In this document: positions 13,759 to 35,325 of the stretch, piece by piece | Position numbering within the stretch: the first letter of the stretch is position 1 | Layout of the letters: every line of letters begins with the position of its first letter | Origin: Bacteroidota bacterium | GTDB lineage: Bacteria; Bacteroidota; Bacteroidia; Bacteroidales; GCA-2711565 | NCBI GenBank assembly: GCA_018816945.1 | Contig: JAHIVC010000087.1 | Span: forward strand, 1 to 64,000 | Length of the DNA: 64,000 nucleotides | Direction: 5' to 3' | Made by a program: the position numbers and the translations under genes | The notes under the pieces: generated by a model | What the model saw: the letters and a program-made list of their open reading frames with translations, nothing else | What the model was told of the DNA's origin: nothing | Databases searched by the model: none

Positions 13759-14406
13759 ATGGGAACAATTTCAAAAGGGATCCTTGGTGGATTTTCCGGC
13801 AAAGTTGGCACTGTCGTAGGTGCCAGCATCTTCGGAATTGACGTCATGCGGTCTTATCAAGCAAATGTTGGGAACCCTCGCACGGTAGGCCAGGTTTCTC
13901 AAAGAACTAAATTCAGTTTAATTGTACAGTTTCTTAGATTGCTATTGCCAATTATTAAGATTGGCTATGCTCTTAAGGCAATCGGACAAAGTGCTTTTAA
14001 TGCCTGTGTTTCTTACAATATCAAAAATTCGATTACAGGAACCTATCCGGATTATTCCATTGATTTTTCCAAAATAATGATTTCTCAGGGATCATTACTC
14101 AAGGTTCCGGCCCCAAGTATTGATGAGAATAATGCGTCATCTGTATCAATAGCCTTTTCTCAACACTGTTCGAGCACAGATACCGAATACAACGACCTTG
14201 CGTATGCACTGTTTTATAACGTTACAAAAGGTTCAGTTATGACTTCAATGGGAATTAGAAAACGCTCTGATTCGAATGTATATGTAGCTCCTGAAATGTG
14301 GGCAGTTGGTGATGAAGTACATGCCTGGATATTTTTCACTTCTCCTGATGGAAGTAAAGTATCCGATTCTGTGTATGCTGGTTCAGCGACCCTTAACACT
14401 CCATAA
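13759..14406 (+). CDS. DUF6266 family protein
   Basis: 215 residues matching the Bacteroidetes DUF6266 family, recognisable from the N-terminus MGTISKGILGGFSGKVGTVV with the following GxDVMRSY, and NPRTVGQVSQRTKF. The C-terminal part ends with a beta-rich WAVGDEVHAWIFF segment. The function of the family is not known. It has no signal peptide. A perfect-length fragment of a second copy (last 35 codons) lies at 49031-49138, together with its downstream spacer, so this gene was part of a duplicated unit. A strong terminator follows it. Confidence 0.75.
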   Translation: MGTISKGILGGFSGKVGTVVGASIFGIDVMRSYQANVGNPRTVGQVSQRTKFSLIVQFLRLLLPIIKIGYALKAIGQSAFNACVSYNIKNSITGTYPDYSIDFSKIMISQGSLLKVPAPSIDENNASSVSIAFSQHCSSTDTEYNDLAYALFYNVTKGSVMTSMGIRKRSDSNVYVAPEMWAVGDEVHAWIFFTSPDGSKVSDSVYAGSATLNTP

Positions 14407-16409: not shown

Positions 16410-18110
16410 ATGAAAACAAAAATGATGAGAACAAAAATGCTTTTAATATTCTTATTTATAGCTTTCTTATATAGAACTGATTTGGCTGCACAGGAAATCG
16501 AAATAATTTCAAAAGATCTACTAATCGAGGACACAAGACAACTTATTAAGAACATTGAAGTGAGTCATCCCGATCCATATTTGAATTTTGGAGGTAAGAT
16601 AGCTTTTCACCGAGAATTTCAGAAAATTCTTTCATTAACACCCAAAGAAGGGATGACACAAAACGAATTCTATAACTCATTAATGCCATTCGTTGCTAAA
16701 ATTGGTGATATGCATACAGGCTTAATTAATCCAGTAAAACCAATGCAGAATGGTCCTGGATTACCTTTGAAATTCAAGATTATTGATTGGGATCTAGTCG
16801 TTGTTGAAGTGCCCTCATCTGAATATAAAAACTTGCTTGGAAGCAAATTAGTTTCAATATATGATATTCCTTTCGAAAAATTGCTTGTACGACAAACTCA
16901 ACTTAGGGGAATTGAAAATAAACCCGGGGAGTTAGTTTTCCTTTCGATTAGTTTAAAAAGTTCAAACGGGATTAAAAACATAATACCAGAATGGTCAATA
17001 AATGAGAAAATACCGGTTGAATTCAAGTCAAAATCTGGTAATATAGTAAAACAGGATTTTCAGATTTCTGGCGATAATAAGGGAAACGCGATTTCTATTC
17101 CAACAAAAATTGTAAAGCCTTCAGTTGAAAAATCCGATGTGGTTTACAGTTTTATAGATAAAGAAGAAACCGCTTTACTAGTAATATCAAATATGGAAAG
17201 ATACCGCGAAGCAAGCGAATCCTGGTTTTCAAGTGGTATGGAAGGGGCTGCTGAATATTCTGGTATTGCATATCAACATTTTAATAATGTTGAACCACCT
17301 GCAAACAGGGAAGATCTTTTAAAAGGAATTCCATCTGCAACCGAAACATTTGTTTCGTTGATTCAAGATTTGAAAATGAATAAAACCAAAAACCTTATTG
17401 TTGATTTACGCGATAATACTGGTGGAAATTCAATGATGAAAGAAATGCTCGTTTATTTTCTTTTTGGTAAAGAGGGATTGCTTAGTATGAACACGGGATA
17501 TCAAATTATTAAATACTCAGATTTATATTTTCAAACCTATTCCTCCGATTCATTATCAATAATAAATAAACATAGAGATATATTGCTCACAGGAGACGAT
17601 TACGATTTTGGAAAAGAAAAAGATTTCTATAAAAACGATGTTGATCTGGAGCAGGTAGAGGAATTTTTACAAAGCTCGTCAACATTTTGGAGTGTATATA
17701 AATCAGAACAATATCATATACCAGCGGTGCAACTTGAGAATATCATTGTTTTATGCAATCCGTACACTACAAGCTCTGGGTTTAATTTGTTAACATCATT
17801 AACAGAAAAGGGAGCCAAATTGCTGGGTACAGCATCAGCACAACCCGGTAATAATTTTGGTGATATTTTGTTTTTCCAGCTTAACAATTCAGAAATAAAA
17901 GGCTATGTATCATTTAAACAAAATATTACATTCCCTGAAGATCCTGTAAAAGGCAAATGTTTTATGCCAGATTACCCATTGACATATGAAAAGTTCGCAT
18001 CATATAATTTTGATCCTGAAGCAGAGATAATCTATGCTCTTGAGATATTAAATGCAAGTTTTAGTAAGAGTAGTAAAACCAAAAACAATATCAATGAAAT
18101 CAAAAAGTAA
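16410..18110 (+). CDS. secreted S41-family (C-terminal-processing-like) peptidase
   Basis: 566 residues. A signal peptide ends at LAAQ (about 28). A tricorn-core-like N-terminal part (IGDMHTGL near 105-112) and a PDZ-like linker lead to the S41 catalytic domain. NLIVDLRDNTGGN is the conserved strand (about 329-341) and NPYTTSSGFNLLTSL holds the candidate nucleophile Ser455/456. The downstream FPEDPVKGKCFMPDYP is the usual terminal strand. S41 enzymes cleave unfolded or C-terminal peptides in the envelope. Its last 17 bp overlap the next gene, so translational coupling is likely. Confidence 0.82.
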   Translation: MKTKMMRTKMLLIFLFIAFLYRTDLAAQEIEIISKDLLIEDTRQLIKNIEVSHPDPYLNFGGKIAFHREFQKILSLTPKEGMTQNEFYNSLMPFVAKIGDMHTGLINPVKPMQNGPGLPLKFKIIDWDLVVVEVPSSEYKNLLGSKLVSIYDIPFEKLLVRQTQLRGIENKPGELVFLSISLKSSNGIKNIIPEWSINEKIPVEFKSKSGNIVKQDFQISGDNKGNAISIPTKIVKPSVEKSDVVYSFIDKEETALLVISNMERYREASESWFSSGMEGAAEYSGIAYQHFNNVEPPANREDLLKGIPSATETFVSLIQDLKMNKTKNLIVDLRDNTGGNSMMKEMLVYFLFGKEGLLSMNTGYQIIKYSDLYFQTYSSDSLSIINKHRDILLTGDDYDFGKEKDFYKNDVDLEQVEEFLQSSSTFWSVYKSEQYHIPAVQLENIIVLCNPYTTSSGFNLLTSLTEKGAKLLGTASAQPGNNFGDILFFQLNNSEIKGYVSFKQNITFPEDPVKGKCFMPDYPLTYEKFASYNFDPEAEIIYALEILNASFSKSSKTKNNINEIKK

Positions 18111-19014
18111 GAAAGCAGGACTGATATCTAGCATAATTATTTTTTATGCAATAAGTTTATTTGCACAGCCAATAGATTATTCTAAGTTAACCGGAAAATA
18201 CCTTGGTCAAAAAGAACCCGGATTAACACCAGAAATATTTGCACCAAACATAATTACAACAGAACTTACAGAGCATGGTACAGTAACATTCTCACCGGAT
18301 GGCAAGGAAGTCTTTTGGTCCGTAATTTATTCGGATCCATTTAGAAAGAAAATTATGACCATGAAACAAGAAGACAAAGGGTGGACAGTTCCCCAAATTG
18401 CATCCTTTTCATTGGGCGAAAATGAAGGTAATCCTATTTTTTCTCCTGATGGTAAGCGCGTTTTTTTTACTGGATGGAGATCTGCCGAAGGATATGCAGG
18501 TAGTAAGCATTTAATAATGTATGCAGAAAAGACTGAGGAAGGTTGGAGTGAACCTGGATTGCTTGACCCTATTATAAATTCGATAAGTAGATATTGGCAT
18601 ATTTCTGTTGCCAGGAATGGCAACTTCTATTTTTACTCAGATAAAGATGGTGGAGGTATCTTTTATTCGAAATATATGAATAAGGACTATACTTCGCCCG
18701 AAAAACTTAATCTAAGTTTTGAAGGTGGAACTCCTTTTATTGCTCCCGATGATAGCTATATCATATTCTCTGCTAAGCAAGATGAAGGTTTTGGTGAAAT
18801 TGATTTGTATATCAGTTTTCGAAAAAAAGGTAATACCTGGACTATTGGAAAAAACTTAGGTCCACTTATTAATTCTGATCAGGATGATATTTGGCCTATT
18901 GTTTCTCCCGATGGTAAGTTTTTATTTTTTACCAGTGCCAGAACCGGAAATATGGATATATTTTGGGTCTCAGCAAAAATTATAGATGAACTTAAACCAA
19001 AAGATTTAAAGTAA
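18094..19014 (+). CDS. secreted PD40 beta-propeller protein
   Basis: 306 residues from the ATG at 18094, which gives a proper signal peptide (ends ISLFAQ); an upstream in-frame ATG at 18052 would put it deep inside the S41 gene. The mature part starts with YSKLTGKYLGQKEPGLTPE and IFAPN. It holds PD40 blades (FSPDGKEVFW, FSPDGKRVFF, IAPDDSYIIF, VSPDGKFLFF) and the family tail FWVSAKIIDELKPKDLK. PD40 repeats build six-bladed propellers as in TolB and bind ligands or partners. Its 5' end is nearly identical in DNA to the gene at 20067, and its last 39 nt to the gene at 34423. Confidence 0.85.
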   Translation: MKSKSKKAGLISSIIIFYAISLFAQPIDYSKLTGKYLGQKEPGLTPEIFAPNIITTELTEHGTVTFSPDGKEVFWSVIYSDPFRKKIMTMKQEDKGWTVPQIASFSLGENEGNPIFSPDGKRVFFTGWRSAEGYAGSKHLIMYAEKTEEGWSEPGLLDPIINSISRYWHISVARNGNFYFYSDKDGGGIFYSKYMNKDYTSPEKLNLSFEGGTPFIAPDDSYIIFSAKQDEGFGEIDLYISFRKKGNTWTIGKNLGPLINSDQDDIWPIVSPDGKFLFFTSARTGNMDIFWVSAKIIDELKPKDLK

Positions 19015-19039
19015 TCATCAATTAGAGGATGAAAAAGAA

Positions 19040-20044
19040 ATGAAAAAACTAATTCTAATCAGTTGTCTGCTGGCAGTGGCTTTGACAACTATTGCGCAGC
19101 AAAGCAATTTTCCAAAATTAAGTGGCCCATATCTTGGACAAACTCCTCCCGGCATAACGCCCGAGATTTTCGCTCCAGGTATTATTTCAACAAATATTAC
19201 AGAGTGGACTCTCACATTTACACCGGATGGACTTGAGGCATATTACACAATACAAGGATTAAAAGGGTATAATCATCTGATCTGTGTTAAAGAGGTAAAT
19301 GGAGTTTGGCAACAGCCTGAGATTGCCTCTTTTTCCAATCCCGATCATAATGCCGATCCTTTTATAGCACCCGACGGTCAGAAATTGTTTTTTTGGTCGA
19401 ATGGCCCTGAAGATAAAACAAAAAAGCCCGGGAATAACAGCGATATCTGGTATGTCGAAAGAATTGGAAATAGTTGGGGAAAGCCCATACGTTTAGATTC
19501 AACGATTAACACAAAACACTGGCAGATTTTTCCAACGGTATCATTAAGCGGGAATCTGTATTTCAGCTGCAATTATCCCGACTCAAAAGGAGGCTTTGAT
19601 ATATATAAAAGCGAATTTATTAATGGCAGATACGATAAACCTGTGAATCTTAGCGATTCGATTAACACACCCTACCTTGAGCAGGAACCATATATTGCTG
19701 CCGATGAAAGCTATATAATTTTTGGTTCCGATCGTCATGCTCAGGGAACACAAGATTGGGATCTATATATCAGCTTTAGGAAGAGAGATGGAGAATGGAC
19801 TACAGCAATTAATATGGGTCCCACAATTAATACGAAAGCGATGGAACAGGCTGCAATTGTAACCAGCGATGGAAAGTATCTGTTTTTTAGCAGCAACAGG
19901 GTTCGGGAATACAAACCCAGTTCGAATGATTTTAACTACCAAACCATTATAAATGCATTAAATGGCTGTCAAAATGGGAACTCCGATGTCTATTGGGTCT
20001 CCTCAGAAATTATCGAAAAGCTAAAACCAAAAGAATTTAAGTAA
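19040..20044 (+). CDS. secreted PD40 beta-propeller protein
   Basis: 334 residues. The signal peptide MKKLILISCLLAVALTTIAQ is followed by FPKLSGPYLGQTPPG, ITPEIFAPGIIST and four readable blades (FTPDGLEAYYT, IAPDGQKLFF, IAADESYIIFGS, TSDGKYLFFSS), then the tail YWVSSEIIEKLKPKEFK. This is the archetype of the local family. The signal-peptide DNA is repeated almost unchanged in the genes at 20067, 30048 and 34423, far more similar than the blades, which suggests recombination through the 5' end. It sits 25 bp after the previous PD40 gene. Confidence 0.85.
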   Translation: MKKLILISCLLAVALTTIAQQSNFPKLSGPYLGQTPPGITPEIFAPGIISTNITEWTLTFTPDGLEAYYTIQGLKGYNHLICVKEVNGVWQQPEIASFSNPDHNADPFIAPDGQKLFFWSNGPEDKTKKPGNNSDIWYVERIGNSWGKPIRLDSTINTKHWQIFPTVSLSGNLYFSCNYPDSKGGFDIYKSEFINGRYDKPVNLSDSINTPYLEQEPYIAADESYIIFGSDRHAQGTQDWDLYISFRKRDGEWTTAINMGPTINTKAMEQAAIVTSDGKYLFFSSNRVREYKPSSNDFNYQTIINALNGCQNGNSDVYWVSSEIIEKLKPKEFK

Positions 20045-20066
20045 TTATCAATTAAAGAGAAAAAAA

Positions 20067-21005
20067 ATGAAAAAACTAATTCTAATCAGTTGTCTGCTGG
20101 GAATGACAATGACAACTAATGCTCAGCAAATAGATTATTCTAAGTTAACCGGAAAATACCTAGGGCAAAAAGAACCCGGATTAACGCCCGAACTTTTTGC
20201 GCTAGGCCTAGTTTCAGTTGGCAATGGTGTACATGGAAATATTGTATTTACTTCTGATTTTACCGAAGCAGCATGGCATCCTAATTATAAAGTAAATGGA
20301 AAAGCGCTCATTTACATTATGAAATATAAAAATGGACAGTGGCAGAACCCAGAAGAATTTTTTCCTAAAGATGGATATAACTACTCCGAACCATTCTACT
20401 CTTACGATGGGACCAAACTCTATTACCTTTCGGGTAATATTGGGTCTTCCGGGAATGCAGAAAATGAAAAAATCTGGTTTGTTGAACGTAAGGGTAATGG
20501 TTGGTCAGAGCCAAAGCTGTTAAGTGAGAATCTCCCTGCATTCCACTGGCAGTTCTCATTGGATAAAAATGGAAGCGTTTATTATGGTGGTGGAAGTCCG
20601 GATAAAAAAGGAGAAATTTACTATTCAGAATATAAGGATGGAGAATATGGAACCCCGGTGCGGCTTCCAGAAAGTATTAATTCTTCTTCAGCTGAATTTT
20701 CTCCAATCATCTCCCCGGATAATAGCTACATTATTTTTACCCGCATGTTGGAAAAGCAGAATGCACCCCCGCAGTCGAATCTCTTTATAAGTTTCAGAGA
20801 TAAAAACAATAACTGGTCGGAAGCTAAAAACTTAACAGATGTTATTGGACACCCTGAGAAAACCCCATTTGTTATGATGGGGGGAGCCAGAATTACACCT
20901 GATGGCAAATATCTGTTCTTTACATTTTTTAATGGAAAGGGGCACATGGCTTACTGGGTTTCTACAAAAATCATCGAAGATATAAAACCTGCAGAGTTAA
21001 AATAG
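20067..21005 (+). CDS. secreted PD40 beta-propeller protein
   Basis: 312 residues. It combines the signal peptide of the 19040 gene with the YSKLTGKYLGQKEPGLTPE block of the 18094 gene, then its own blades (FTSDFTEAAW, YSYDGTKLYY, ISPDNSYIIFT, ITPDGKYLFF) and the tail YWVSTKIIEDIKPAELK. The mosaic of neighbours' 5' segments is visible at DNA level. Exported, probably periplasmic or surface; ligand unknown. Spacing of 22 bp from the previous gene suggests one operon. Confidence 0.85.
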   Translation: MKKLILISCLLGMTMTTNAQQIDYSKLTGKYLGQKEPGLTPELFALGLVSVGNGVHGNIVFTSDFTEAAWHPNYKVNGKALIYIMKYKNGQWQNPEEFFPKDGYNYSEPFYSYDGTKLYYLSGNIGSSGNAENEKIWFVERKGNGWSEPKLLSENLPAFHWQFSLDKNGSVYYGGGSPDKKGEIYYSEYKDGEYGTPVRLPESINSSSAEFSPIISPDNSYIIFTRMLEKQNAPPQSNLFISFRDKNNNWSEAKNLTDVIGHPEKTPFVMMGGARITPDGKYLFFTFFNGKGHMAYWVSTKIIEDIKPAELK

Positions 21006-21031: not shown

Positions 21032-21979
21032 ATGAAAAAGCTAATGATTAATCTCATTATTCTGGTACCTCTTATTTTTATTAATGCCAAATGCATTTCG
21101 CCGCAAATTGGATTAAGCCAAAAATTTTCTGTGGTTGGAAAATATAGAGTTGGTATGGCATACGGTTTTGATGTAAATGGGAATTATGTTTATATGGGTA
21201 CTAATGATGGTCTGTTAATACTTGATATTAGTAATATCAAAAGCCCTGTATTTGCAGGAAAACTTGATTTAGGCTTTATTAGAGATGTTAAGTTGGTAGA
21301 TGGCGTTGTCTATTTATCTGGCGGTGGAAATGGGTTCTTTATTGTGGATGTTTCTAATGTAAAACAACCAAAACTTATTGGAAAATATCAAGATAATGGA
21401 GAAATATACGGTTTTGCTAAGTCAGGTCCATATGCATTTTTATGTGACAGAAAGGAGGGTGTGAAAGTTATTGATATAAGTGATCCCTTTAATCCTCGAA
21501 AAATAAGCCATTGGTCCAATGGCGGGCAATATTGGGAAATTGAAATCAGGGATAATTTAGCTTATGTGGCAGATATTAGAGATGGATTAGAAATCATTGA
21601 CATTACCAATCCAATGTCCTTGACGTTAATTAACACAGTTCCTGAAACTAAAGGAGCCTGTAGTATTCAAATAAACGATGAACAAATTTGTGTGGGTACT
21701 TTAAAAGGAATATTTGTTTTGGATATAAAGGACCCAAGAGTTCCAAGTCTGATTATGAGTACATTAACCAGCCAGGAGGTTAAAGAGGGATTCATATCAA
21801 AAGATTTATTGTTAGCAGGCACAGGTGGTGTTATTGCATTTGATATTACTAATCCAAAGGATCCATTACAGTTGGCAAAATGGACAATGAGTGGAACGCA
21901 TAAAGTAATATATGACGGGTCATATATTTATACGGCCCTCAATAGGTTTTATATTCTGAAATTAGATAAAAACCAATAA
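21032..21979 (+). CDS. secreted LVIVD-repeat beta-propeller protein
   Basis: 315 residues with a signal peptide (about 1-22) and repeated LVIVD units of the form DGLLILDISNIKSP, NGFFIVDVSNVKQP, EGVKVIDISDPFNP, DGLEIIDITNP and GIFVLDIKDP, about 40 residues apart. LVIVD repeats form a propeller found in bacterial and archaeal surface proteins. It lacks the PD40 motifs and tail, yet is followed 3 bp later by a fragment coding for a PD40 tail (21983-22096). The paralogue at 22103 is its nearest relative. Confidence 0.8.
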   Translation: MKKLMINLIILVPLIFINAKCISPQIGLSQKFSVVGKYRVGMAYGFDVNGNYVYMGTNDGLLILDISNIKSPVFAGKLDLGFIRDVKLVDGVVYLSGGGNGFFIVDVSNVKQPKLIGKYQDNGEIYGFAKSGPYAFLCDRKEGVKVIDISDPFNPRKISHWSNGGQYWEIEIRDNLAYVADIRDGLEIIDITNPMSLTLINTVPETKGACSIQINDEQICVGTLKGIFVLDIKDPRVPSLIMSTLTSQEVKEGFISKDLLLAGTGGVIAFDITNPKDPLQLAKWTMSGTHKVIYDGSYIYTALNRFYILKLDKNQ

Positions 21980-21982
21980 TAT

Positions 21983-22096
21983 ATGAATGTTGATTTTCAC
22001 CCCAATGAAAAATATCTTTTGTTTTACTCCAAAGGTCATATTTACTGAAATTCCACAAAAATTATTGAAGAACTAAAACAGAAAAACTTAAAATAT
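21983..22096 (+). pseudogene. PD40 C-terminal tail remnant 1
   Basis: Encodes FHPNEKYLLFYSKGHIY, a stop where Trp should be (TGA for TGG), then STKIIEELKQKNLK. This is the last blade and tail of the local PD40 family without any of the upstream blades. It directly follows the LVIVD gene and reads in frame toward the next LVIVD start. Confidence 0.8.
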
Positions 22097-22102
22097 AAAA
22101 AC

Positions 22103-23083
22103 ATGAAAAAGCACATTAATAATTCTATAATATTGGTATTGTCACTAAGCCTCATTATCCTTTCATCTTTCGAATTAATGGGACAACCAGCCTTAAAGAG
22201 GGTGGGGAGATACAATACTGGCATATCCTATGGATTATCTATAAAAGATCATTATGCATATGTTACTACTAACACATCCCTTATTATCCTAGATATCATA
22301 AAGCCTGAAAAGCCGGTTAAACTAAGTGAACTTAAAATAGGTACTCCGATTTTTGACGTACAGGTAATGAATGATTATGCTTTTCTGGCCGCCAGTTCTG
22401 AAGGGTTGATTATAGCGAATATCTCAAATTCTAATAATCCTAAAATCGTAAGTAGGTATAGCGTTAATGGAAAAATTGCTAAAATAGAAGCAGATAAAAA
22501 CCTTTGCTATACTTTAACCTATGAGAATGGATTTGAAATAATTGATGTAGGGAATCCGCTTGAACCTAAAAGCATTGGTAACTTTCAAATCAAAAATGCA
22601 CGAAATTTAAAAGTTCAAAATAATATTGCGTATATATCCGATCCTAAAAATGGGTTAACAATTTTAGATATATCCGATCCAACAGAAATCAAAAAAATTA
22701 GGGTAGTTGATAATACAAAGGGAGCAGCCGGAATAGGTATAAACAATGGATTATTGTACTTAGGTTCTTATGGAAATCTGGTTCGAATATTTAATGTATC
22801 TGATCCTCAATCCCCAATATTTATTACACAATATCAATATTCGAATGAAGTCTCAGGTTTAATTGTTTTTGAAAATTATCTGATAACAAAATTTCAAGGG
22901 ATCAAAATAGAGGATATTTCTGATATCTACAATCCTAGAGTTTATGCTCAATACCATATTCGGGGTATAAAGGGGGGAGTTCATGACATTATTGTACAAG
23001 ACAATTATGTATTTTTTGTTCTAAAAGGTATAACAATTCTAAAAATTATCGAAGATCTAAAACCAGAAATATTAAGAAAATAG
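22103..23083 (+). CDS. secreted LVIVD-repeat propeller with PD40-type tail
   Basis: 326 residues. A signal peptide (about 1-27, ending LMGQ) is followed by LVIVD units such as TSLIILDIIKPEKP, EGLIIANISNSNNP, NGFEIIDVGNPLEP and NGLTILDISDPTEI. The end of the protein is unusual: after ITIL it reads KIIEDLKPEILRK, the same tail that ends the PD40 proteins, whereas the sister gene at 21032 lacks it. It therefore looks like an LVIVD propeller joined in frame to the PD40 tail. The tail is short, so coincidence is possible but unlikely in this setting. Confidence 0.8.
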   Translation: MKKHINNSIILVLSLSLIILSSFELMGQPALKRVGRYNTGISYGLSIKDHYAYVTTNTSLIILDIIKPEKPVKLSELKIGTPIFDVQVMNDYAFLAASSEGLIIANISNSNNPKIVSRYSVNGKIAKIEADKNLCYTLTYENGFEIIDVGNPLEPKSIGNFQIKNARNLKVQNNIAYISDPKNGLTILDISDPTEIKKIRVVDNTKGAAGIGINNGLLYLGSYGNLVRIFNVSDPQSPIFITQYQYSNEVSGLIVFENYLITKFQGIKIEDISDIYNPRVYAQYHIRGIKGGVHDIIVQDNYVFFVLKGITILKIIEDLKPEILRK

Positions 23084-23096
23084 AAAGGAAACAGCT

Positions 23097-24491
23097 ATGA
23101 AAAAAACATTGTATTGTATCGCAGTTATATTAATCGGGCTATTTACCTCCACTGTTGCTATTTCGCAAACAGGAAATACACTAGTAGCAAAACCTATTTC
23201 AAAAAATATAATTCTTGTCCAAACCGAACGAGGAATGGATACCCAGCTTGCAATTAATTCCGATAAGGGTATTGTCGTATTCGGAACGCATTGGGGGCCT
23301 GCAATTGAAAAGGAATATAGGGCTGTAATTGAGAGGGAATTTGGAAATTCCAATTTCAAATATGTTGTAAATCCTAAGTCACGGATAATATCATGCGGTG
23401 GAAATGTTTTATACAAAGATGCCTTGATTGTTGCAGACGATGAAGTTTATAATGAGATGGTCTTAAACAAAACTAAACTCAATGATGAGATTCAGCGAGA
23501 AGTAAATCTTTTTAATGAAAAAGCTGAAAGATCAAGAAATATTCTTAAACAAGGAAATCTTAGCGTTGATGACCAGGCCATGCATTCCCACTGGATGAAT
23601 TACTGTCAGCGAATTGCCGATGATCTAAAAGCAGGGTATGATTTGGTATTACCTTCCTTTGTTTTTGAAAACAGGTTTACTATGAATCTGGGTAATATGA
23701 TTCTGCACATGGAGAATTTTGCCGGAGCCGGAACGATTATTAATATCCCTGAAGAAAAATTCCTAATGTTCAATGGGATGTTTGATCCGCTTCATATTAT
23801 AGGTCCACCACGGGGAAAAAAGCTGGAAATAGACCAATGGATTTCTATCCTGGAAAAATACCTTTCCGAATGCAGCAATTACGAACAGGTTGTTTTGGGT
23901 TACAAGGGCATTTGGCCATTAAAAAAAATTGAAGACAGGAAGAATTTCATGATACACCTCTGGAACGAAATTAAAAAAGCAACGGATGAAGGACTGGATT
24001 TCGAACAGGTAGAAGAAAGGCTTTCCATCGATTCTGAATTTAGCTACATTAAAAATTGGGACTTATATAGAGAAACCGGCGATGCATGGGTAAGGGAGGA
24101 CTTCGAAAAGATACTGTTTGCATTCTGGGTGCATCTGCATCCGGTAATTAGCACTCATATTGATAATTTCATCAAAGATAATGGACCGGAAAAAGGGTTA
24201 GAGGAATTAAAAGATATTCTAAAAAACAGAAGGAAGGATTATTATATAAGCCAGTCTGCCTTAAACACTCTTGGTTATCGCCTTTTAAACAAAGAAATGA
24301 ATGATCCCGCCATTGAAGTATTCACCATAAATGTTGATTTATATCCCGCCTCTGCCGATGTTTACGATAGCCTTGGAGAAGCCTATATGAAAAGCGGGCA
24401 AAAAGATCTTGCTATAAAGAACTACCAGAAATCCTTAGAACTGAACCCTCAAAATTCCAATGCTCTGGAGAAGCTAAGAGTTTTAAAATGA
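23097..24491 (+). CDS. secreted, probably inactive metallo-beta-lactamase-fold protein with TPR tail
   Basis: 464 residues. A signal peptide (about 1-24) is followed by an MBL-like domain: NIILVQTERGMDTQLAINSD, GIVVFGTHWGP, then KYVVNPKSRIIS where active enzymes carry the HxHxDH zinc motif, and CGGNVLYKDA matching the usual GGN strand. None of the zinc-binding histidines is present, and the later metal ligands are also replaced (FAGAGTIINIPEEKFLMF). A helical region and a TPR (about 410-464, YDSLGEAYMKSGQKDLAI) complete it. Probably a non-catalytic binding protein. Confidence 0.7.
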   Translation: MKKTLYCIAVILIGLFTSTVAISQTGNTLVAKPISKNIILVQTERGMDTQLAINSDKGIVVFGTHWGPAIEKEYRAVIEREFGNSNFKYVVNPKSRIISCGGNVLYKDALIVADDEVYNEMVLNKTKLNDEIQREVNLFNEKAERSRNILKQGNLSVDDQAMHSHWMNYCQRIADDLKAGYDLVLPSFVFENRFTMNLGNMILHMENFAGAGTIINIPEEKFLMFNGMFDPLHIIGPPRGKKLEIDQWISILEKYLSECSNYEQVVLGYKGIWPLKKIEDRKNFMIHLWNEIKKATDEGLDFEQVEERLSIDSEFSYIKNWDLYRETGDAWVREDFEKILFAFWVHLHPVISTHIDNFIKDNGPEKGLEELKDILKNRRKDYYISQSALNTLGYRLLNKEMNDPAIEVFTINVDLYPASADVYDSLGEAYMKSGQKDLAIKNYQKSLELNPQNSNALEKLRVLK

Positions 24492-24570
24492 ATAAGCTAA
24501 CCATATATTGGCCAATCATTTTATTTAACATTAATAGAATAGTAAAATGAACTAATTAAAGAAAAGTAAT

Positions 24571-26205
24571 ATGAAAAAAGTATCTTTGGTAACTTTTAGC
24601 CTATGCCTACTCGTTGCAGTTGTATATAGTCAGAATACAGAGGTTAGTATGAATCGCTTAACCAAGCAACAATGGGCCGAGGATCTCGATTTTGTTGTTG
24701 ACAAACTAAACGAGGTGCACCCTGGATTGTACAGAAGAATTTCGCCTGATTCATTATCCATCATAATTAGGAATGCAAAACTTGAAATTGAGAATTCCAG
24801 TTCGGATGTTGAATGTTACTTTGCCATAAGGGAAATTATAGCCGCATTACAGGATGGACACACCAACCTATCCATAAGGGGGAAAATTGATTTTATTAAG
24901 GGAAAAGTCCCCATTCAATTTGATTATTTTAATGATGGGTATCATGTGATAGGTGTTGAGAAAGGCAACAAGGAATTACTCGGATTAAAATTAATTGCTA
25001 TAAATGGAGTCCCTGTTGAAAATATTATCCACCGTTTTTTAGAGGTATCCTCGGGCGATAACCGAATCGGAAGGCTTGGGAAGTTAAGATCTTATTTGAC
25101 CTACCCCTTGATGCTTCAAGGTGCAGGTGTACAAATTACTGACGATGAAATTAACTACAAATTTATCACAAAAGATGGCAATCAGTTTAGTAAGACCATT
25201 GCTTGTAGCGATTATAATCCTGCCGATTTATATTCAGTTCAGGATTTATTGGGATCAGAAACTCCTTTGCACCTGAAAAATCAGCAAAAGAACTATTGGT
25301 TCGAGTACATAAAAAGCAATAAAGCAATGTATGTACAAATAAACAGAATTGAAAATCAAAGCACAAAAGATTTGTTTAGTAAATTCTCATATGAATTCTT
25401 TGATTATATTGATAAACATTCCGATGAGGTTGAAAACGTAATAATTGATCTAAGGTATAATGCCGGGGGTCAAGGAAGATTAGCAATCTCCTTTGCAAAA
25501 GAGATCATTAAACGAGGGAATATTGACACCAGAGGAAAATTGTTTGTTATATTAGGTCAAAAAACCTTTAGCGCTGCAATTGTTTTGGCAACAAGTCTCC
25601 TGGAGTACACAGATGCTATTTTTGTGGGTTCACAGAGTGCATGTCCTGCCAATTTATTCAGTGACAGCCAAAATGTTGGAAACCTTCCCAATAGTGAATT
25701 TGGTTTATCAGTTGCCTCCCGACAAATAGATAACGCGTGGATATCAAACCGCGAATATTTTAAAATTGATATTCCCGCAATAACTAATGGATTCGATTAT
25801 TTTTCCGGGCAGGATCCTGCATTAAATGCTATACAAAATAAGGGAGCGATACCCCTTGAAGATATTGCTGCATTAAAGGGTGCTGATAGTGCATATATTG
25901 AGTATAAAGTTCTGGTTCAGAAGTACTCAGACATACTTTGGTGGTCCTCATCGGTCAATTTGGAGTCAAATCTTAATGCAAAAGCCGATAAATTGGTAAA
26001 AGAAGGAAAAATAGATCAGGCCGAACAAGTAATGGTGCTTAATACTATGATATACCCGTCTTCGGGGAGCGTTTGGTATATGATTGCCCAAATTTATTAC
26101 TTAAACGGGAAGAAGGATCAGTGCATTAAGGCGCTCGAAAAATCATTGGAGCTAAATCCGAATAATCAGAATGCAATTGATGCTTTAAATCAACTAAAAA
26201 AGTGA
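24571..26205 (+). CDS. secreted S41-family peptidase with TPR tail
   Basis: 544 residues. A signal peptide (1-20) precedes a tricorn-core-like domain (LQDGHTNLSI near 92-101), a PDZ-like part (LIAINGVPVENIIH) and the S41 domain with NVIIDLRYNAGGQGR (about 290-304) and the nucleophile region GQKTFSAAIVLAT, Ser334. The C-terminus (about 490-544) is a TPR with KALEKSLELNPNNQNAI, very like the tails of the genes at 23097, 28544 and 42456. A PD40 tail remnant follows 25 bp later. Likely periplasmic. Confidence 0.85.
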   Translation: MKKVSLVTFSLCLLVAVVYSQNTEVSMNRLTKQQWAEDLDFVVDKLNEVHPGLYRRISPDSLSIIIRNAKLEIENSSSDVECYFAIREIIAALQDGHTNLSIRGKIDFIKGKVPIQFDYFNDGYHVIGVEKGNKELLGLKLIAINGVPVENIIHRFLEVSSGDNRIGRLGKLRSYLTYPLMLQGAGVQITDDEINYKFITKDGNQFSKTIACSDYNPADLYSVQDLLGSETPLHLKNQQKNYWFEYIKSNKAMYVQINRIENQSTKDLFSKFSYEFFDYIDKHSDEVENVIIDLRYNAGGQGRLAISFAKEIIKRGNIDTRGKLFVILGQKTFSAAIVLATSLLEYTDAIFVGSQSACPANLFSDSQNVGNLPNSEFGLSVASRQIDNAWISNREYFKIDIPAITNGFDYFSGQDPALNAIQNKGAIPLEDIAALKGADSAYIEYKVLVQKYSDILWWSSSVNLESNLNAKADKLVKEGKIDQAEQVMVLNTMIYPSSGSVWYMIAQIYYLNGKKDQCIKALEKSLELNPNNQNAIDALNQLKK

Positions 26206-26230
26206 ACAATCAATAATATTAATTCAGTAC

Positions 26231-26341
26231 TGTCCGGTGGTGTCACCCGATGGGAAATACCTTTTTTTTAGTTCCAAAGGTGATGTTTTCTGGGTTTCTG
26301 CCAAAATTATTGAAGATCTAAAACCAAAAGATTTAAAATAA
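26231..26341 (+). pseudogene. PD40 C-terminal tail remnant 2
   Basis: An intact frame reads CPVVSPDGKYLFFSSKG, then DVFWVSAKIIEDLKPKDLK and a stop, exactly the last blade and tail of the PD40 family. There is no start codon and no upstream blade. It starts 25 bp after the stop of the S41 gene. Confidence 0.85.
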
Positions 26342-26366
26342 TTGTCAAATTTTAAAAAGGATAAAG

Positions 26367-27587
26367 ATGAAAAAAGCACAAATTATAACAATTGCTTTTA
26401 TAGCGATTCTGTTTACGCAGAGTTGCCAAATGAATTCAAATAAATATGTAATTCTTGAGCAGAGCATCGATTCAATATTCGCTCAGGGAGATCTTGTGGG
26501 TTTTTCCGCGGGTATTATTCAAAGGGAGGACCTGATTTGGACAATGACACGCGGAAGGGCCGATTTAAAAAAGGATATTCCGGTCGATAACAACACCTTG
26601 TTTGTTCTTGCTTCGCTATCGAAAACGGTTACAGGCGCTGCGTTAATGACACTTTATGACGAGGGCTTGTTTTCTCTTGACGATGATATCAATTTGTACC
26701 TTCCTTTTAAGGTAAGAAATCCAAACTTTCCTGATATCCCTATTACAATACGAATGCTGCTCACCCACACCTCATCATTATTCGATAACAGTAAATATAT
26801 TTCCAGCCTCTATGCCTGTGGCGATCAAACACATATAACTTTCGAAGAGTATCTAGCGAATTGCTATACTCCGCAGGGAAGCCAATACGATTCTACAAAT
26901 TTTGCAAAGTACAAACCTGGTGAAAGTTGGGAGTACTGTAATTCAGGGTATGTATTTATTGCCTTTTTGGTTGAAACGATTTCAAAGCTTTCTTTTCCTG
27001 ATTATTGCTTCGCAAGTTTATTTACACCTCTCGAAATGAATGAATCGGGTTGGCTCTATAATAACCTGAACCTCGATAACATTGCATATAACTATATTTC
27101 TGAAGAGGAGGCAAGGAAGGAACAGGGACATCCAAGTATCGATCCTGAAACTATTAATGGGAAGAATGCTGTTTGCCATTATGCCTGGCCAGGATATGCC
27201 GATGGTGGATTAAACACCAGCCCAAAACAGTTTGCAAACTTTATGATTATGTTAATGAACAATGGTCATTTTAAAGGTAAGCAGATTTTGAAACCTGAAA
27301 CAGTAAACTTAATCTTGACTCCTCAAAACGTGCAAGGAATGGGTTCGTCTCCCCGCTACAAAAGACTTGATATGGGACTAACCTGGTGGCTCAGAGAAAC
27401 AGAGTCTGAATATTTCTTTTCACATTCCGGCGGTGGAACCGGAATTACAACTTTTGCCTTTTTCGATCCAAACAAAAAATATGGGGCAGTTTTCTTTATA
27501 ACAGGCGATTGGCACGATAAGGCCTATGATAGGCTAGTCCTGGACCTTTTCAGAAAGCATTTTCAAAGTGTAAAGCATAAAGCATAA
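26367..27587 (+). CDS. serine beta-lactamase-fold hydrolase, putative lipoprotein
   Basis: 406 residues. An N-terminal hydrophobic segment ends at TQSC, so Cys20 may be lipidated. The class-C/DD-peptidase motifs are present: S83-L-S-K86, YCN in WEYCNSGYVF (about 187-196), and HSGGGTG near 357-363 in place of KTG. These families hydrolyse beta-lactams, peptidoglycan stem peptides or small esters; the substrate here is unknown and antibiotic resistance should not be assumed. It follows PD40 tail remnant 2 by 25 bp. Confidence 0.82.
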   Translation: MKKAQIITIAFIAILFTQSCQMNSNKYVILEQSIDSIFAQGDLVGFSAGIIQREDLIWTMTRGRADLKKDIPVDNNTLFVLASLSKTVTGAALMTLYDEGLFSLDDDINLYLPFKVRNPNFPDIPITIRMLLTHTSSLFDNSKYISSLYACGDQTHITFEEYLANCYTPQGSQYDSTNFAKYKPGESWEYCNSGYVFIAFLVETISKLSFPDYCFASLFTPLEMNESGWLYNNLNLDNIAYNYISEEEARKEQGHPSIDPETINGKNAVCHYAWPGYADGGLNTSPKQFANFMIMLMNNGHFKGKQILKPETVNLILTPQNVQGMGSSPRYKRLDMGLTWWLRETESEYFFSHSGGGTGITTFAFFDPNKKYGAVFFITGDWHDKAYDRLVLDLFRKHFQSVKHKA

Positions 27588-27741
27588 CGCATTCTTGACC
27601 TTAACTACAATTCTGTTGCAATTTCGATTTACATTCTTCCATGTTTTTGGGAGGCTATTCTCCATTGATGATAAATACATAAATGACTAGGATTGAGATA
27701 ATTGAGTTAATTCAGATATACAAACTTAAAACTTTGATATT

Positions 27742-28365
27742 ATGATAATTTATGAATTAATTTCCGCGGTTTTACAAGTTCTTTTATTTGGGCTTATACC
27801 TTTTGTAGTATTCCTGATAACTAAAAGGAACATAAGAGGATTTCTGAAGTACATAGGAATACTTAAACCTGTAAGAAAGACTATCTTTTGGTCAGTGGTA
27901 GTATCTATTATTGTTTTGATTAACGGAATACTTATGCCTTTTCTGTTCCCTGAAATATTGGAACTAATGACCAAAAAGGGGACGGTAGCAGGAAACTTAA
28001 AACTAATGGGACTATCAGGTAATACACTGGCTATCCTTGCGATAACTGCATTAATAAAAACCTCATTATCGGAGGAAATACTTTTCAGGGGATTTATTGC
28101 CAAGCGTTTGATAGATTGGTTGGGATTTAATACTGGCAATATAATACAAGCTTTAATATTTGGACTAATGCATATCACTCTGATATTGCTCATAATTGAA
28201 CCTAACTATCCATTCCTGATATTTGTTTTTATCTTCTCAGGGTTAGCAGGATACATATTAGGATTTATAAAAGAAAGAGTTGGAAACGGGAGTATTATAC
28301 CTGGTTGGATTGCGCACGGATTGGCAAATCTTATTTCGTTCTATGTCATTGCTTTTCTACTATAA
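27742..28365 (+). CDS. CPBP-family intramembrane metalloprotease
   Basis: 207 residues, with about six hydrophobic segments. The catalytic signature of the CPBP/CAAX-protease (Abi) family is intact: E111-E112-I-L-F-R116-G and FGLMHI with H144, plus a third motif HGLANLI near the C-terminus. Bacterial members are linked to bacteriocin self-immunity, peptide processing or signalling. It is the only multi-pass gene in this part of the block, and it too is followed by a PD40 tail remnant 25 bp after its stop. Confidence 0.85.
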   Translation: MIIYELISAVLQVLLFGLIPFVVFLITKRNIRGFLKYIGILKPVRKTIFWSVVVSIIVLINGILMPFLFPEILELMTKKGTVAGNLKLMGLSGNTLAILAITALIKTSLSEEILFRGFIAKRLIDWLGFNTGNIIQALIFGLMHITLILLIIEPNYPFLIFVFIFSGLAGYILGFIKERVGNGSIIPGWIAHGLANLISFYVIAFLL

Positions 28366-28390
28366 ATAAGAACACAATTTATTAAATGGG

Positions 28391-28513
28391 GCATCCCATA
28401 CCCATTTCTCACCCGATGGGAAGGATTTCTTTCTTACACGATTTATTAGTGAAATCTCAGATATTTATTGGGTATCTGCAAAAATTATTGAAGAATTAAA
28501 ACCAAAAGAATAA
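28391..28513 (+). pseudogene. PD40 C-terminal tail remnant 3
   Basis: The frame reads ASHTHFSPDGKDFFLTRF, then ISEISDIYWVSAKIIEELKPKE and a stop: again just the last blade and tail. The offset from the preceding stop codon (25 bp) is the same as for remnant 2. Confidence 0.85.
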
Positions 28514-28543
28514 AAAATTTTAAAACTTAAAAAAAGGATAATT

Positions 28544-30004
28544 ATGAAATCAATTACAATATTAACAATCTTTAAAACAATTGCATTGATAATAGGAACA
28601 ATGCTTCATATGCTTTCAACTGTTGCACAAACCAGAAGTGAAAAATTAGATGAACTGTTTTGTTATTATAACGAAAATGGGATGTTTAATGGTGCGGTAA
28701 TGGCAGCAGAAAACGGAAAAATTGTTTATAACAAAGCTTTTGGTTTTTCAGATTTTGAGAACAAAACCCCTTTTGACAGCATAGCCGTTTTTGCAATAGG
28801 TTCAATTACAAAACCATTTACGGCAACAGCAATTATGATGTTAAAAGAGAAAGGGCTTCTTTCTTACGATGATAAACTGAGCAAATATTTTCCGGAATTT
28901 CCAGCTCAGGCATCAACCATCACCATTAGAAATCTCCTGACCCATACATCAGGAATTCCTGATTTCAGGGGGAACAAATTTAAAGTGTTTAAACAGCCAA
29001 TGATAACAAATAAAATGGCATTGGATACACTAATAAATAATTTCCACTTAGAGTTTCAGCCAGGTATAAAATACCGTTATAGCAATAGTAATTATTTGTT
29101 TCTGGCATTGATTATTGAGAAAATCTCAGGGATGTCTTACAAAAAATTCATCGATGATAAGATATTTAAACCTGCCGGAATGAACAAAACCTATATAGCA
29201 GATGAATATTCTGATGCTTCACCAAACAGAGTAAATGCATATGTTTATTACTGGGATAAGACGGATTATGATCTGCAGGACAGGGCCAGCGGACATGGAA
29301 ACATTTACTCAACCGTTTATGATCTTTTTCTTTTTGATCAGGCTTTATATTCAAACAAGTTGCTTAAGCAGGAAACATTAAATGAAGCCTATAACTTTTC
29401 ACTTTATCTGGATAGTAAAAATAGTTACAGATATGGTTTGGGCTGGAGAATTGAGGGTGAAACAGAAGGAAGAGGAATTGTTGCACACAGGGGAGCAATA
29501 GGAGCCTTTAGAGGCCTGTTATGGAGAGATATAAATAATAAAAACACACTTATTATACTCACCAATAACTGGTGGTTGAGCGAAATTCCTGAAATTTTAC
29601 AGGGTGCACAAAGCATAATGGAAGGCAAAGATTATAAACTGGCAAAAGTTTCAATTCAGGCTTTGTTTCTGGATAATTGGTATATGTATGGTTTCGATGC
29701 TGCTTTGAATAAAATGCGAAAGGTTGTTACCGAAGCCCCCGATCATTATAACTACTCTGAAGATTTGTTAAATAATTTGGCGTACTATTTTGTTTATAGC
29801 AGAAGTGAACCATCTTTTGCCAAAAGTATCCTGGAGTTTTCGCTTGAAGTTTATCCGGAGTCTGCTGTATTGTGGGACAGTTTAGGTGAAATGAATTCAA
29901 TCCTCAATAACATACAAACTGCCATTAGCTGTTATGAAAAATCGCTCGAATTAGATCCCGAAAATGCTAATGCACAAAAAATGTTGGATAAGCTGAGGAA
30001 ATAA
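28544..30004 (+). CDS. secreted serine beta-lactamase-fold hydrolase with TPR tail
   Basis: 486 residues. A signal peptide (about 1-29) is followed by the hydrolase domain with S87-I-T-K90, a YSN motif in YRYSNSNYLFLAL (about 178), LLTHTSGIPDF, and HRGAIGAFRG (about 315) as the third motif. The C-terminal 150 residues are helical and end in a TPR (SLGEMNSILNNIQTAISCYE, KSLELDPENANA). Its stop codon lies inside an out-of-frame PD40 tail fragment (29991-30023). Probably acts on peptidoglycan-like or ester substrates in the envelope. Confidence 0.85.
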   Translation: MKSITILTIFKTIALIIGTMLHMLSTVAQTRSEKLDELFCYYNENGMFNGAVMAAENGKIVYNKAFGFSDFENKTPFDSIAVFAIGSITKPFTATAIMMLKEKGLLSYDDKLSKYFPEFPAQASTITIRNLLTHTSGIPDFRGNKFKVFKQPMITNKMALDTLINNFHLEFQPGIKYRYSNSNYLFLALIIEKISGMSYKKFIDDKIFKPAGMNKTYIADEYSDASPNRVNAYVYYWDKTDYDLQDRASGHGNIYSTVYDLFLFDQALYSNKLLKQETLNEAYNFSLYLDSKNSYRYGLGWRIEGETEGRGIVAHRGAIGAFRGLLWRDINNKNTLIILTNNWWLSEIPEILQGAQSIMEGKDYKLAKVSIQALFLDNWYMYGFDAALNKMRKVVTEAPDHYNYSEDLLNNLAYYFVYSRSEPSFAKSILEFSLEVYPESAVLWDSLGEMNSILNNIQTAISCYEKSLELDPENANAQKMLDKLRK

Positions 30005-30023
30005 AACCAAAAGAACTGAAATA
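29991..30023 (+). pseudogene. PD40 tail remnant 4 overlapping a stop codon
   Basis: Read one frame away from the hydrolase gene, the DNA gives EEIKPKELK and a stop, matching the EELKPKELK end of PD40 proteins. The hydrolase frame ends KLRK-stop within the same bases, so the two coding ends were joined at a short overlap around CTGAGGAAA. Confidence 0.65.
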
Positions 30024-30047
30024 ATTATCATTTAAAAGGCGAAAGAA

Positions 30048-30944
30048 ATGAAAAAACTAATTCTAATCAGTTATCTGCTGACAATGGCAATGACAACTAT
30101 TGCGCAGCAAAGCGATTTTCCAAAATTAAGTGGCCCATATCTTGGGCAAACAGAATCTGGAGATGAAGCCAAACTGTTTTTGCCCGAAATATTCAAAAAT
30201 ATTCATAGTTCACCAGCCTTTTCACCTGACGGTAAGCAGGTGTTCTGGAGGTCGATGGATCAAAAGTCCCTGCTTTTTATGCAAGAAATTAATGGCGTAT
30301 GGACAGCACCTGATTTTGTTCCATTCAAATCAAAATTTTACCGGCAAGATGTTCCATTCTTTTCGCCCGATGGAAAGAGAATATATTTCATAACAACCAA
30401 ACCACAGCGCTGGTATCAATTATGGTCTGGTGAAGCTATTTGGTATGTTGAAAAAGAAAAAGATGGATGGTCTAATCCAAAACAAGTTAGTAAAGAAATT
30501 AATAAGATATATACTCACTGGCAATTTTCGGTTTCGGCAAATGGAAATATCTATTTGAATGGCAAGGACGGCGATAAATGGTTCATTTATATATCAGAAT
30601 TAAAAGAAGGAAAATATACAAAACCTGCTAAAATTGAAACTCCTTTATGTCTGGCTGAAGGGCAGTCATCTTACTTTTTCCCTTTTATTTCTCCCGATGA
30701 ATCCTTTCTAATTTTTAGCAGAAGAGTTGATGGCAATAATCCGGATCTGTTTATAAGTTATCGAAAAGAAGATGGAACATGGACTGAAGCTGTTAATCTT
30801 GGTGATAGAATAAATTCAAAAGGATTGGAGATATGTCCTGTGGTTACGCCGGATGGCAAATACCTTTTTTATATGAGGCGTGATTGTGTTATGTGGGTTT
30901 CCGCAAAAATAATTGAAGATTTAAAACCAAAAGAATTAAAATAA
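30048..30944 (+). CDS. secreted PD40 beta-propeller protein
   Basis: 298 residues with the shared signal peptide (MKKLILISYLLTMAMTTIAQ), FPKLSGPYLGQ, a shortened TESGDEAKLFLPEIF block, blades (FSPDGKQVFWRSM, FSPDGKRIYFI, ISPDESFLIFSR, VTPDGKYLFYMR) and the tail MWVSAKIIEDLKPKELK. Positions 30696-30910 are about 95% identical to 35077-35291 of the gene at 34423, while the middle regions differ much more. It follows tail remnant 4 by 24 bp. Confidence 0.85.
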   Translation: MKKLILISYLLTMAMTTIAQQSDFPKLSGPYLGQTESGDEAKLFLPEIFKNIHSSPAFSPDGKQVFWRSMDQKSLLFMQEINGVWTAPDFVPFKSKFYRQDVPFFSPDGKRIYFITTKPQRWYQLWSGEAIWYVEKEKDGWSNPKQVSKEINKIYTHWQFSVSANGNIYLNGKDGDKWFIYISELKEGKYTKPAKIETPLCLAEGQSSYFFPFISPDESFLIFSRRVDGNNPDLFISYRKEDGTWTEAVNLGDRINSKGLEICPVVTPDGKYLFYMRRDCVMWVSAKIIEDLKPKELK

Positions 30945-33505: not shown

Positions 33506-34426
33506 ATGAGAAAAATAGTACTAGTCTTTGTGTTCATGTTATTTCTAGGCACACCTTTATTTTGCCAAACAAGTCAAAAAAATTTCCCAGTTTTGAAAGG
33601 GCAATATCTTGGACAAGAACCTCCCGGTATAACGCCAGAAATATTTGCGCCGGGAATTATTTCTACGGATCAGTTTGAATTTGGAGGTACTTTTTCTCCG
33701 GATGGTACTGAATTTTTCTTTACCCGAAGGTCGGATTATGATGGGTCGGACAATAGAATTTACTATACCCGTAAAGTTAATGGCAGTTGGACAAAACCTG
33801 CACTTGCAACATTTGCTACCGAAAATTTTGAATTTCTGCCTGTGATAACTCCAGATGGGGACAAACTGTTTTTTTATTCAGAACGACCAAGACCGGACAC
33901 AAAAGGATTTAATGGTGACTTATGGTATTGCTTAAGAGAAGATCAAGAGTGGAGTGAAGCAAAATTCTTCGAAAGTCCTATTAACAAGAAATATACAATG
34001 ATGCTTACTTCAACAAAGGATGGCACGTTATATTTTTCTGGAAATTATGATGGTAAAAGAGGCGGATTCAAGTCGATAAATAGCGATGGAAGGTATCAGA
34101 ATTTTGAATATCTGCCTCAGGAGATTAATACAATACGACCGGCTCATCCCTTTATTGCTCCCGATGAAAGCTACTTAATATTCGATGCCCAGGTAAAAGG
34201 AATGGGTAAACCCGAACTTTTCATCTGTTTCAGAAAACCGGATGGTTCTTGGTCGCAACCACAAAATATGGGGCCGGAAATCAATGCAACACAAACTGAA
34301 TTTGCAGCCAACGTTTCACCTGATGGTAAGTATTTGTTCTTTCACCGCAGAGTAAATAAAAATGGTGAAATATACTGGGTTTCCTCAAAAATTATTGAAG
34401 AACTAAAACCAAAAGAATTAAAATGA
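33506..34426 (+). CDS. secreted PD40 beta-propeller protein
   Basis: 306 residues from the ATG at 33506, which begins a good signal peptide (MRKIVLVFVFMLFLG, cut near LFCQ); the in-frame ATG at 33467 would add an implausible hydrophilic extension. The mature protein has FPVLKGQYLGQEPPG, ITPEIFAPGIIST, blades (FSPDGTEFFFTRR, ITPDGDKLFFYS, IAPDESYLIFDA, VSPDGKYLFFHRR) and the tail YWVSSKIIEELKPKELK. The stop codon overlaps the next start (ATGA), so the two are translationally coupled. Confidence 0.85.
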   Translation: MRKIVLVFVFMLFLGTPLFCQTSQKNFPVLKGQYLGQEPPGITPEIFAPGIISTDQFEFGGTFSPDGTEFFFTRRSDYDGSDNRIYYTRKVNGSWTKPALATFATENFEFLPVITPDGDKLFFYSERPRPDTKGFNGDLWYCLREDQEWSEAKFFESPINKKYTMMLTSTKDGTLYFSGNYDGKRGGFKSINSDGRYQNFEYLPQEINTIRPAHPFIAPDESYLIFDAQVKGMGKPELFICFRKPDGSWSQPQNMGPEINATQTEFAANVSPDGKYLFFHRRVNKNGEIYWVSSKIIEELKPKELK

Positions 34427-35325
34427 AAAAACTCATTCTAATCAGTTGCATACTGGCAGTGGCAATAACAACTAATGCACAGCAAAGCGATTTTCCAAAA
34501 TTAAGTGGCCCATATCTGGGACAAGCACCCCCATCCGATACTCCTAAAAAATTCCTCCCTGATTTATTCAGGAACATACACTCTTCACCAGTTTTCTCTC
34601 CTGATGGGAAGCAAGTATTCTGGAGAGATATGGATTATCAACCGCTTCAATTTATGGAGGAGGTAGATGGTATTTGGACAAAACCGCGGTCTGTTTCATT
34701 CAAAACTTCATTTTATAAACAGGATGCACCATTTATTACACCTGATGGCAACAAACTATTTTTTATCTCAACCAAACCTCAAAAATGGTATCAATTAAGA
34801 AGGTCAGACGAAGCTATTTGGTATATTGAGAAAAAAAGTGATGGCTGGTCTTCCCCTGTATTGGCAAGTGATTTCTACACCCATTGGGCATTTTCTGTTT
34901 CTAGCAGTGGGAATCTGTTTTTTGGAGGCAGCGAAGACAAAGAGCATGATATATGGTTCATATACAAGGCAGAATATAAAAACGCAGAATATTCAAAACC
35001 TGTAAAGCTAAGCAGGTCTATAATCTTAATCGATGATCCTGTGGTATATGGGCAGGTCTCGCCCTTTATCGCTCCTGATGAATCCTTTCTAATTTTTAGC
35101 AGAAAAGTTGATGGCAATAATCAGGATCTGTTTATAAGTTATCGAAAAGAAGATGGATCATGGACTGAAGCTGTTAATCTAGGTGATAGAATAAATTCAA
35201 AAGGATTGGAGATATGTCCTGTGGTTACGCCGGATGGCAAATACCTTTTTTATATGAGGCGCGATTGTGTGATGTGGGCCTCAGCAAAAATTATAGATGA
35301 ACTTAAACCAAAAGATTTAAAATAA
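34423..35325 (+). CDS. secreted PD40 beta-propeller protein (mosaic)
   Basis: 300 residues with the shared signal peptide, FPKLSGPYLGQAPPS, blades (FSPDGKQVFWRDM, ITPDGNKLFFIS, IAPDESFLIFSR, VTPDGKYLFYMR) and the tail MWASAKIIDELKPKDLK. The gene is a mosaic: its last-but-one 215 bp match the 30048 gene, and its final 39 bp match the end of the 18094 gene exactly. The start overlaps the preceding stop by 4 bp. Confidence 0.85.
   Translation: MKKLILISCILAVAITTNAQQSDFPKLSGPYLGQAPPSDTPKKFLPDLFRNIHSSPVFSPDGKQVFWRDMDYQPLQFMEEVDGIWTKPRSVSFKTSFYKQDAPFITPDGNKLFFISTKPQKWYQLRRSDEAIWYIEKKSDGWSSPVLASDFYTHWAFSVSSSGNLFFGGSEDKEHDIWFIYKAEYKNAEYSKPVKLSRSIILIDDPVVYGQVSPFIAPDESFLIFSRKVDGNNQDLFISYRKEDGSWTEAVNLGDRINSKGLEICPVVTPDGKYLFYMRRDCVMWASAKIIDELKPKDLK

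Follow-up and report, generated by a model that had tools for sequence, protein, structure and literature searches.

Terminal reassortment has been described for type III effectors (Stavrinides et al., 2006, as covered in PMC5675462). The orphan cdiA-CT fragments of CDI/Rhs loci are start-less, begin near a conserved motif and stand in arrays, and recombination at that motif has been proposed (PMC3150448). In Vibrio cholerae, homologous recombination that uses no specific site, and whose breakpoints vary, displaces T6SS effector genes and leaves remnants downstream (PMC5361080). Here we compare with these systems the PD40 gene arrays of an uncultured bacterium; a search of the literature turned up nothing on PD40 arrays, and thus no earlier report of such shuffling in them.

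The genome (G000) is metagenome-derived, belongs to the Bacteroidetes and comprises 4.14 Mb on 108 contigs (99.5% complete). The window is the whole stretch of DNA that was analyzed, 64,000 nucleotides in length (C87:1-64000). Among the relatives compared were G001, presumably HGW-Bacteroidetes-17, of the same genus, and JAHISP010000059 (G060), represented by contigs C8 and C18, whose adjacency we infer from overlapping matches to gene f (see below).

The window contains a tandem array of predicted exported (signal-peptide) PD40 beta-propeller genes with nearly interchangeable ends, and from approximately 15 to 42 kb its genes all lie on one strand (+, as do all window features below). Seven PD40 genes or fusions are present: a (18094-19014), b (19040-20044), c (20067-21005) and d (30048-30944), all complete, e (33506-34426, with its body at 33558-34420), f (34423-35325) and an ankyrin-PD40 fusion (35350-37197). 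A 1200-aa amidohydrolase-like/PD40 fusion (38051-41653) follows, with its PD40 module at 39965-40749. Family membership of gene a is well supported (PF07676, 77.8 bits vs. a Pfam cut-off of 20.9, E = 4.8e-22). The 3' end common to the PD40 genes, here called the tail, is the end of the last blade, WVSAKIIEELKPK; it closes gene a as FWVSAKIIDELKPKDLK (tail E = 1.2e-20) and is likewise present at the end of gene c. After it come a short spacer with a ribosome-binding site and then the 5' leader of the next gene, meaning the signal peptide up to YLGQ, which in the form MKKLILISCLLAVA is common to genes b, c, d and f. Similar proteins ending in VSDSVYAGSxTL adjoin two of the arrays, one beside the window array (13759-14406) and the other beside the array on contig C11 (L035:4650-5375).

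Between PD40 genes c and d stand seven non-PD40 genes: an LVIVD gene (21032-21979, E = 1.6e-29), a second LVIVD gene, LVIVD2 (22103-23083), a gene with a TPR end (23097-24491, TPR_2, E = 2.9e-8) that resembles L034:6344-7777 (L034 is C11:55000-74900), an S41 peptidase with a C-terminal TPR (24571-26205), a beta-lactamase-fold serine hydrolase (26367-27587, PF00144, E = 1.5e-44), a CPBP (Rce1-like) gene (27742-28365, PF02517, E = 2.4e-14) and a beta-lactamase-fold hydrolase with TPR (28544-30004, PF00144, E = 1e-62). A preliminary description of this DNA had reported PD40 tails without a gene body behind the LVIVD, S41 and CPBP genes, and both halves of that observation hold: Pfam confirms the three preceding genes as non-PD40, the S41 gene carrying TPR as well, and the coordinates of the tails are correct and their profile matches significant. 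The first (21983-22096) reads MNVDFHPNEKYLLFYSKGHIY and then NSTKIIEELKQKNLKY, separated by an in-frame TGA at a position that should encode W, and is thus decayed. The second (26231-26341) reads CPVVSPDGKYLFFSSKGDVFWVSAKIIEDLKPKDLK up to its stop, in an open frame of 47 aa with no start codon, and the third (28391-28513) reads ASHTHFSPDGKDFFLTRFISEISDIYWVSAKIIEELKPKE up to its stop, also in an open frame of 47 aa. A profile built from 17 in-gene tails, with E values calculated for the whole genome, matches them at 22001-22084 (E = 2e-5), 26237-26332 (E = 8.9e-18) and 28409-28510 (E = 3.7e-15), which rules out chance resemblance for all three.

A fourth, shorter piece had been noted at the stop of the hydrolase gene that begins at 28544; it is present, at a mere 23 bp (~30001-30023). 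It comprises only the last codons, TAAAACCAAAAGAACTGAAATAA (ending in KPKELK and a stop), joined to the 3'-terminal codons of the hydrolase-TPR gene and overlapping its stop, in a region (29995-30151) that is 86% identical to 18985-19143. The list of orphans was incomplete, in that LVIVD2 has acquired the tail peptide KIIEDLKPEILRK as an in-frame C-terminus (from ~23039), a fifth case in the window. Two of the orphans do begin 25 bp after the preceding stop codon, as first reported, and no meaning attaches to the shared distance, since the two spacers agree at just 10 of 25 positions and it is therefore a coincidence.

Genome-wide, orphan sites number about 14 and follow 14 different non-PD40 genes; the PD40 arrays that contain them are spread over five contigs. 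Outside the window they follow seven non-PD40 genes on C11 (some as 61-bp tandem copies), and C43, C86 and C99 contribute a single site apiece. Lengths overall range from 23 to 123 bp; many array genes have no orphan tail at all. When the PD40 family was cut into eight equal segments and these were searched in 314 kb of array regions, the out-of-gene fragments numbered 1, 1, 2, 0, 0, 0 and 1 for the first seven segments and 14 for the tail; of the eight, the tail is also the one most readily detected. Matches to the tail pattern are confined to PD40 arrays, save two weak ones on C101 and one control match, and a dispersed mobile repeat was rejected on that distribution. Carriage by plasmids was discarded as well, with just three distant plasmid matches at ~30% identity. 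At E = 1e-6 the tail is found in 16 of 247 genomes of the order, and at that level orphans occur only in G000 and G004. The arrays also include true pseudogenes, in the form of PD40 genes split by a frameshift or stop (L034:18126-18338 with 18342-19016, and C43:2627-3271).

Comparison with relatives provided examples of exchange at gene ends. On C101, in another array of the same genome, and on C165 of G001, PD40 genes differ upstream of the tail, and from TATTTACTGGGTATC onward they share an identical TATTTACTGGGTATCAACAAAAATCATTGAAGAATTAAAACCAAATGAA, followed by downstream genes that are 92% identical. The aligned sequences show a clean swap of PD40 bodies at the tail, with the gene number unchanged at that point. 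Replacement of bodies near the last blade had been predicted in the preliminary description; a body swap was found here, at a site other than the window locus.

In the window, the body of gene e is 91.4% identical to its counterpart in G060, where it has a different leader and different neighbors. The match ends on the right with the tail itself (34420). On the left, identity drops within the signal peptide, and the upstream neighbor is FtsX-like in the window and S41 in G060. Gene f has a 91% identical counterpart in G060, where the match resumes 2261 bp later, and the extra DNA at the e/f junction (34413-34426) is made up of an S41-TPR gene with an orphan tail behind it and a PD40 gene (PD40w), so that the presence or absence of two genes falls exactly at the tail of gene e. 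A further PD40 body in G060, PD40v, is free-standing in the place taken by the ankyrin-PD40 fusion. With the PD40 module of the 1200-aa fusion it shares 85.7% identity, exactly from YLGQ to YWVS (39965-40749), and it has a different leader and different sequence past the tail.

In total, eight block ends fall in a leader, spacer or tail, although not all are independent and such zones make up about one-fifth of a gene unit. One exception lies within a gene body: L029:3349-4359 (C101) and L181:2206-3237 (G001) are 97-100% identical in the second half and ~65% in the first, in what is apparently a mid-body gene conversion. This gene had been considered as a third body cassette and was dropped after full alignment revealed the mid-body change. 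Gene ends are thus favored as breakpoints, yet are not the only sites. The claim that breakpoints lie at the SPDGK codons does not stand, as they are spread from ~20 bp upstream of SPDGK down to the final three codons. Single genes on C17 (L033:9978-11927) and C101 (L029:6869-7243) are present in G000 and absent from G001 (L181); the flanking matches overlap by 12-16 bp at the insertion points, and these sites are not at tails.

What happens to the stubs afterwards can be followed at an orphan behind a SnoaL-like gene, which contains stops in G001 and of which only the upstream part is left in G000; old stubs therefore decay. Of the proposal that whole genes replaced PD40 bodies, the part that can be upheld is that bodies in these arrays are exchanged at the conserved 3' end and the 5' leader. 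For the LVIVD, S41 and CPBP genes it does not carry over in the same way. No relative compared holds the segment from LVIVD to the hydrolase, and for the three orphans there insertion beside a tail fits equally well as replacement.

Within the array, ends and bodies were also compared by synonymous agreement. Leaders of the window PD40 genes agree at 0.67, vs. 0.37 expected from non-homologous positions of the same region, and bodies at 0.46 against a background of 0.43, i.e., they are saturated. Tails agree at 0.62, vs. 0.65 expected from the region's own codon bias; a null based on whole-gene codon usage had made the tail test appear positive. With no excess, homogenization of the tails cannot be claimed. 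The same ends are found on unrelated bodies, as the in-frame tail on LVIVD2 illustrates on the 3' side. On the 5' side, a hydrolase-TPR-peptidase-like fusion on C11 (L034:7798-10506) bears the PD40 leader MKKLILISCLLATT in frame, and this leader has 86% DNA identity to that of gene c (20052-20135).

Taken together, the comparisons show that bodies have been exchanged, lost or gained between relatives, with breakpoints mostly in the shared ends. We propose, with a probability of roughly 0.75, end-anchored exchange between the shared ends of tandem PD40 paralogues by general recombination, which leaves stubs as neutral scars that then decay. The repeated tail-spacer-leader junctions would act as substrates, and the repeated ends would recombine by a general route, either RecA-type homologous or short-homology recombination; it is an inference that takes us from homology at the junctions to RecA. 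Partners in exchange would include other loci of the genome as well as incoming DNA, so that arrays could swap, remove or add bodies. Behind an upstream crossover partner from outside the PD40 family, the tail would persist as a start-less stub. Several stubs have since degraded through stops and truncation, and a few have turned into in-frame extensions such as that of LVIVD2.

Ordinary decay, in which frameshift and deletion reduced full PD40 genes to the orphans and bodies were never exchanged, has some support in the broken PD40 genes of the arrays (C43:2753 with a TAA, L034:18126-19016) and in the stop in the first window orphan. It would, however, leave pieces from every segment of the gene, whereas the survey returned 14 tail fragments against 0-2 for each other segment, even if detection of the tail is somewhat easier. 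The frames of two window orphans are fully open and relatives display clean exchanges at the tail, and we consider decay unlikely as the source of the orphans. Insertion, a sub-case of end-anchored exchange in which a foreign gene with its tail is added beside a PD40 tail by tail-to-tail recombination and no body is lost, has a probability a little below even. It is favored by genes with tails that stand between intact PD40 genes, and by G060, where PD40e and PD40w flank an S41-TPR gene that has a tail of its own, the left of the two tail copies matching PD40e and the right one being different. Against insertion, the difference between C101 and G001 is a change of body, not of gene number, and the direction of the change in G060 can be read either as a gain in the one genome or as a loss in the other.

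Tandem tails bear on two further explanations. On C11, copies follow one another with an exact 61-bp period (L034 5508/5569/5630, 10541/10602 and 13456/13517/13578), and the same exact period recurs in Ca. Aminicenantes (L175 8448/8509; L167 11799/11860); in both phyla a CCAAC..GTTGG inverted repeat lies between the copies. Ca. Aminicenantes UBA6072 encodes the metallo-beta-lactamase-like/PD40 fusion of C11 at 69% protein identity and has the 61-bp tandem tail behind it as well; other genes of UBA6072 also carry the MKKLIL leader. These repeats, together with the gene-plus-tail order, the single orientation and the many unrelated genes, might be taken for a site-specific cassette array of the integron type that recombines at the tail. 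This is highly improbable, however, as crossover points differ by up to ~110 bp, the attC core pair (R'' RYYYAAC and R' GTTRRRY) is found within the required distance at just one of 13 orphan sites, bottom-strand DNA folds no better than shuffled sequence (z = -0.8, -1.6, -0.2 and -0.4), and no integrase reaches the TIGR02249 cut-off (best 182 vs. 265 bits). Seven tyrosine recombinases are encoded in the genome, none of them on the window contig, within an array or above that cut-off. One, of 383 aa (L080:883-2034, C17:42110), scores 182 bits against the integron-integrase model and lies near a contig end, ~32 kb from the PD40 array of C17.

Non-coding tail copies of C11 and Aminicenantes match at 83-89%, vs. 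70% for the adjoining gene body, which is poorly explained by simple neutral scars; repeated recombination among the 61-bp copies, or constraint, could be the cause. Together with the retention of the next gene's spacer and ribosome-binding site behind orphans, it speaks for a tail that serves the following gene, through translation coupling or mRNA stability, and is kept by selection. Against this, orphans vary from 23 to 123 bp, several are truncated or contain stops, orthologous orphans decay and many array genes do without one, which makes such a role rather unlikely. It is very unlikely, in our estimate, that selection for recombination maintains the tail-spacer-leader junction as a DNA element and that PD40 arrays are gene-capture platforms common to Bacteroidetes and Aminicenantes, with the 61-bp inverted-repeat tail unit marking where new exported proteins dock. 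That one array type, including its non-coding tandem tail, is present in both phyla nevertheless suggests that arrays also move between phyla.

General recombination that leaves scars is sufficient, given that crossover points vary, one breakpoint is mid-body, integron-type sites and an integrase above the cut-off are lacking and old orphans decay. A dedicated recombinase is unnecessary for exchange in these arrays, and the same evidence argues against the cassette-swapping locus first envisaged in the preliminary description. The short tails look like scars, not genes, and call for caution from annotators. Orphan 3' ends could also serve as markers for finding such arrays and for counting events, if large beta-propeller gene arrays of environmental Bacteroidetes do diversify, as we propose, through end-anchored exchange of bodies.

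Each of the described systems resembles the PD40 arrays in part. As in V. cholerae T6SS loci, bodies appear to be replaced with variable breakpoints and remnants downstream, although those remnants are whole immunity genes that are probably useful (PMC5361080) and PD40 arrays retain gene ends only. Like the cdiA-CT orphans, PD40 orphans are start-less fragments in arrays that begin near a conserved motif; CDI orphans, in contrast, function as toxin/immunity modules and supply a reservoir of specificity (PMC3150448), while PD40 tails have fewer than 45 codons and decay. The PD40 3' stubs seem to be without use. With integron cassette arrays the PD40 arrays share one orientation, a repeat after each gene and heterogeneous genes; they differ in that attC structure is lacking, an integrase is absent from the array and crossover points vary. 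For type III effectors, orphan termini have reportedly been observed too. In terminal reassortment, as described in PMC5675462, gene ends with an export signal are joined to unrelated bodies, as in PD40 arrays. The features found in the arrays are a shared end on unrelated bodies, orphan ends without a body and breakpoints at ends. PD40 arrays differ in that their shared ends belong to beta-propeller genes, that it is the 3' end which remains as a stub, and that secretion-system effectors play no part. This is a familiar kind of gene shuffling, here in another gene family, the PD40 arrays.
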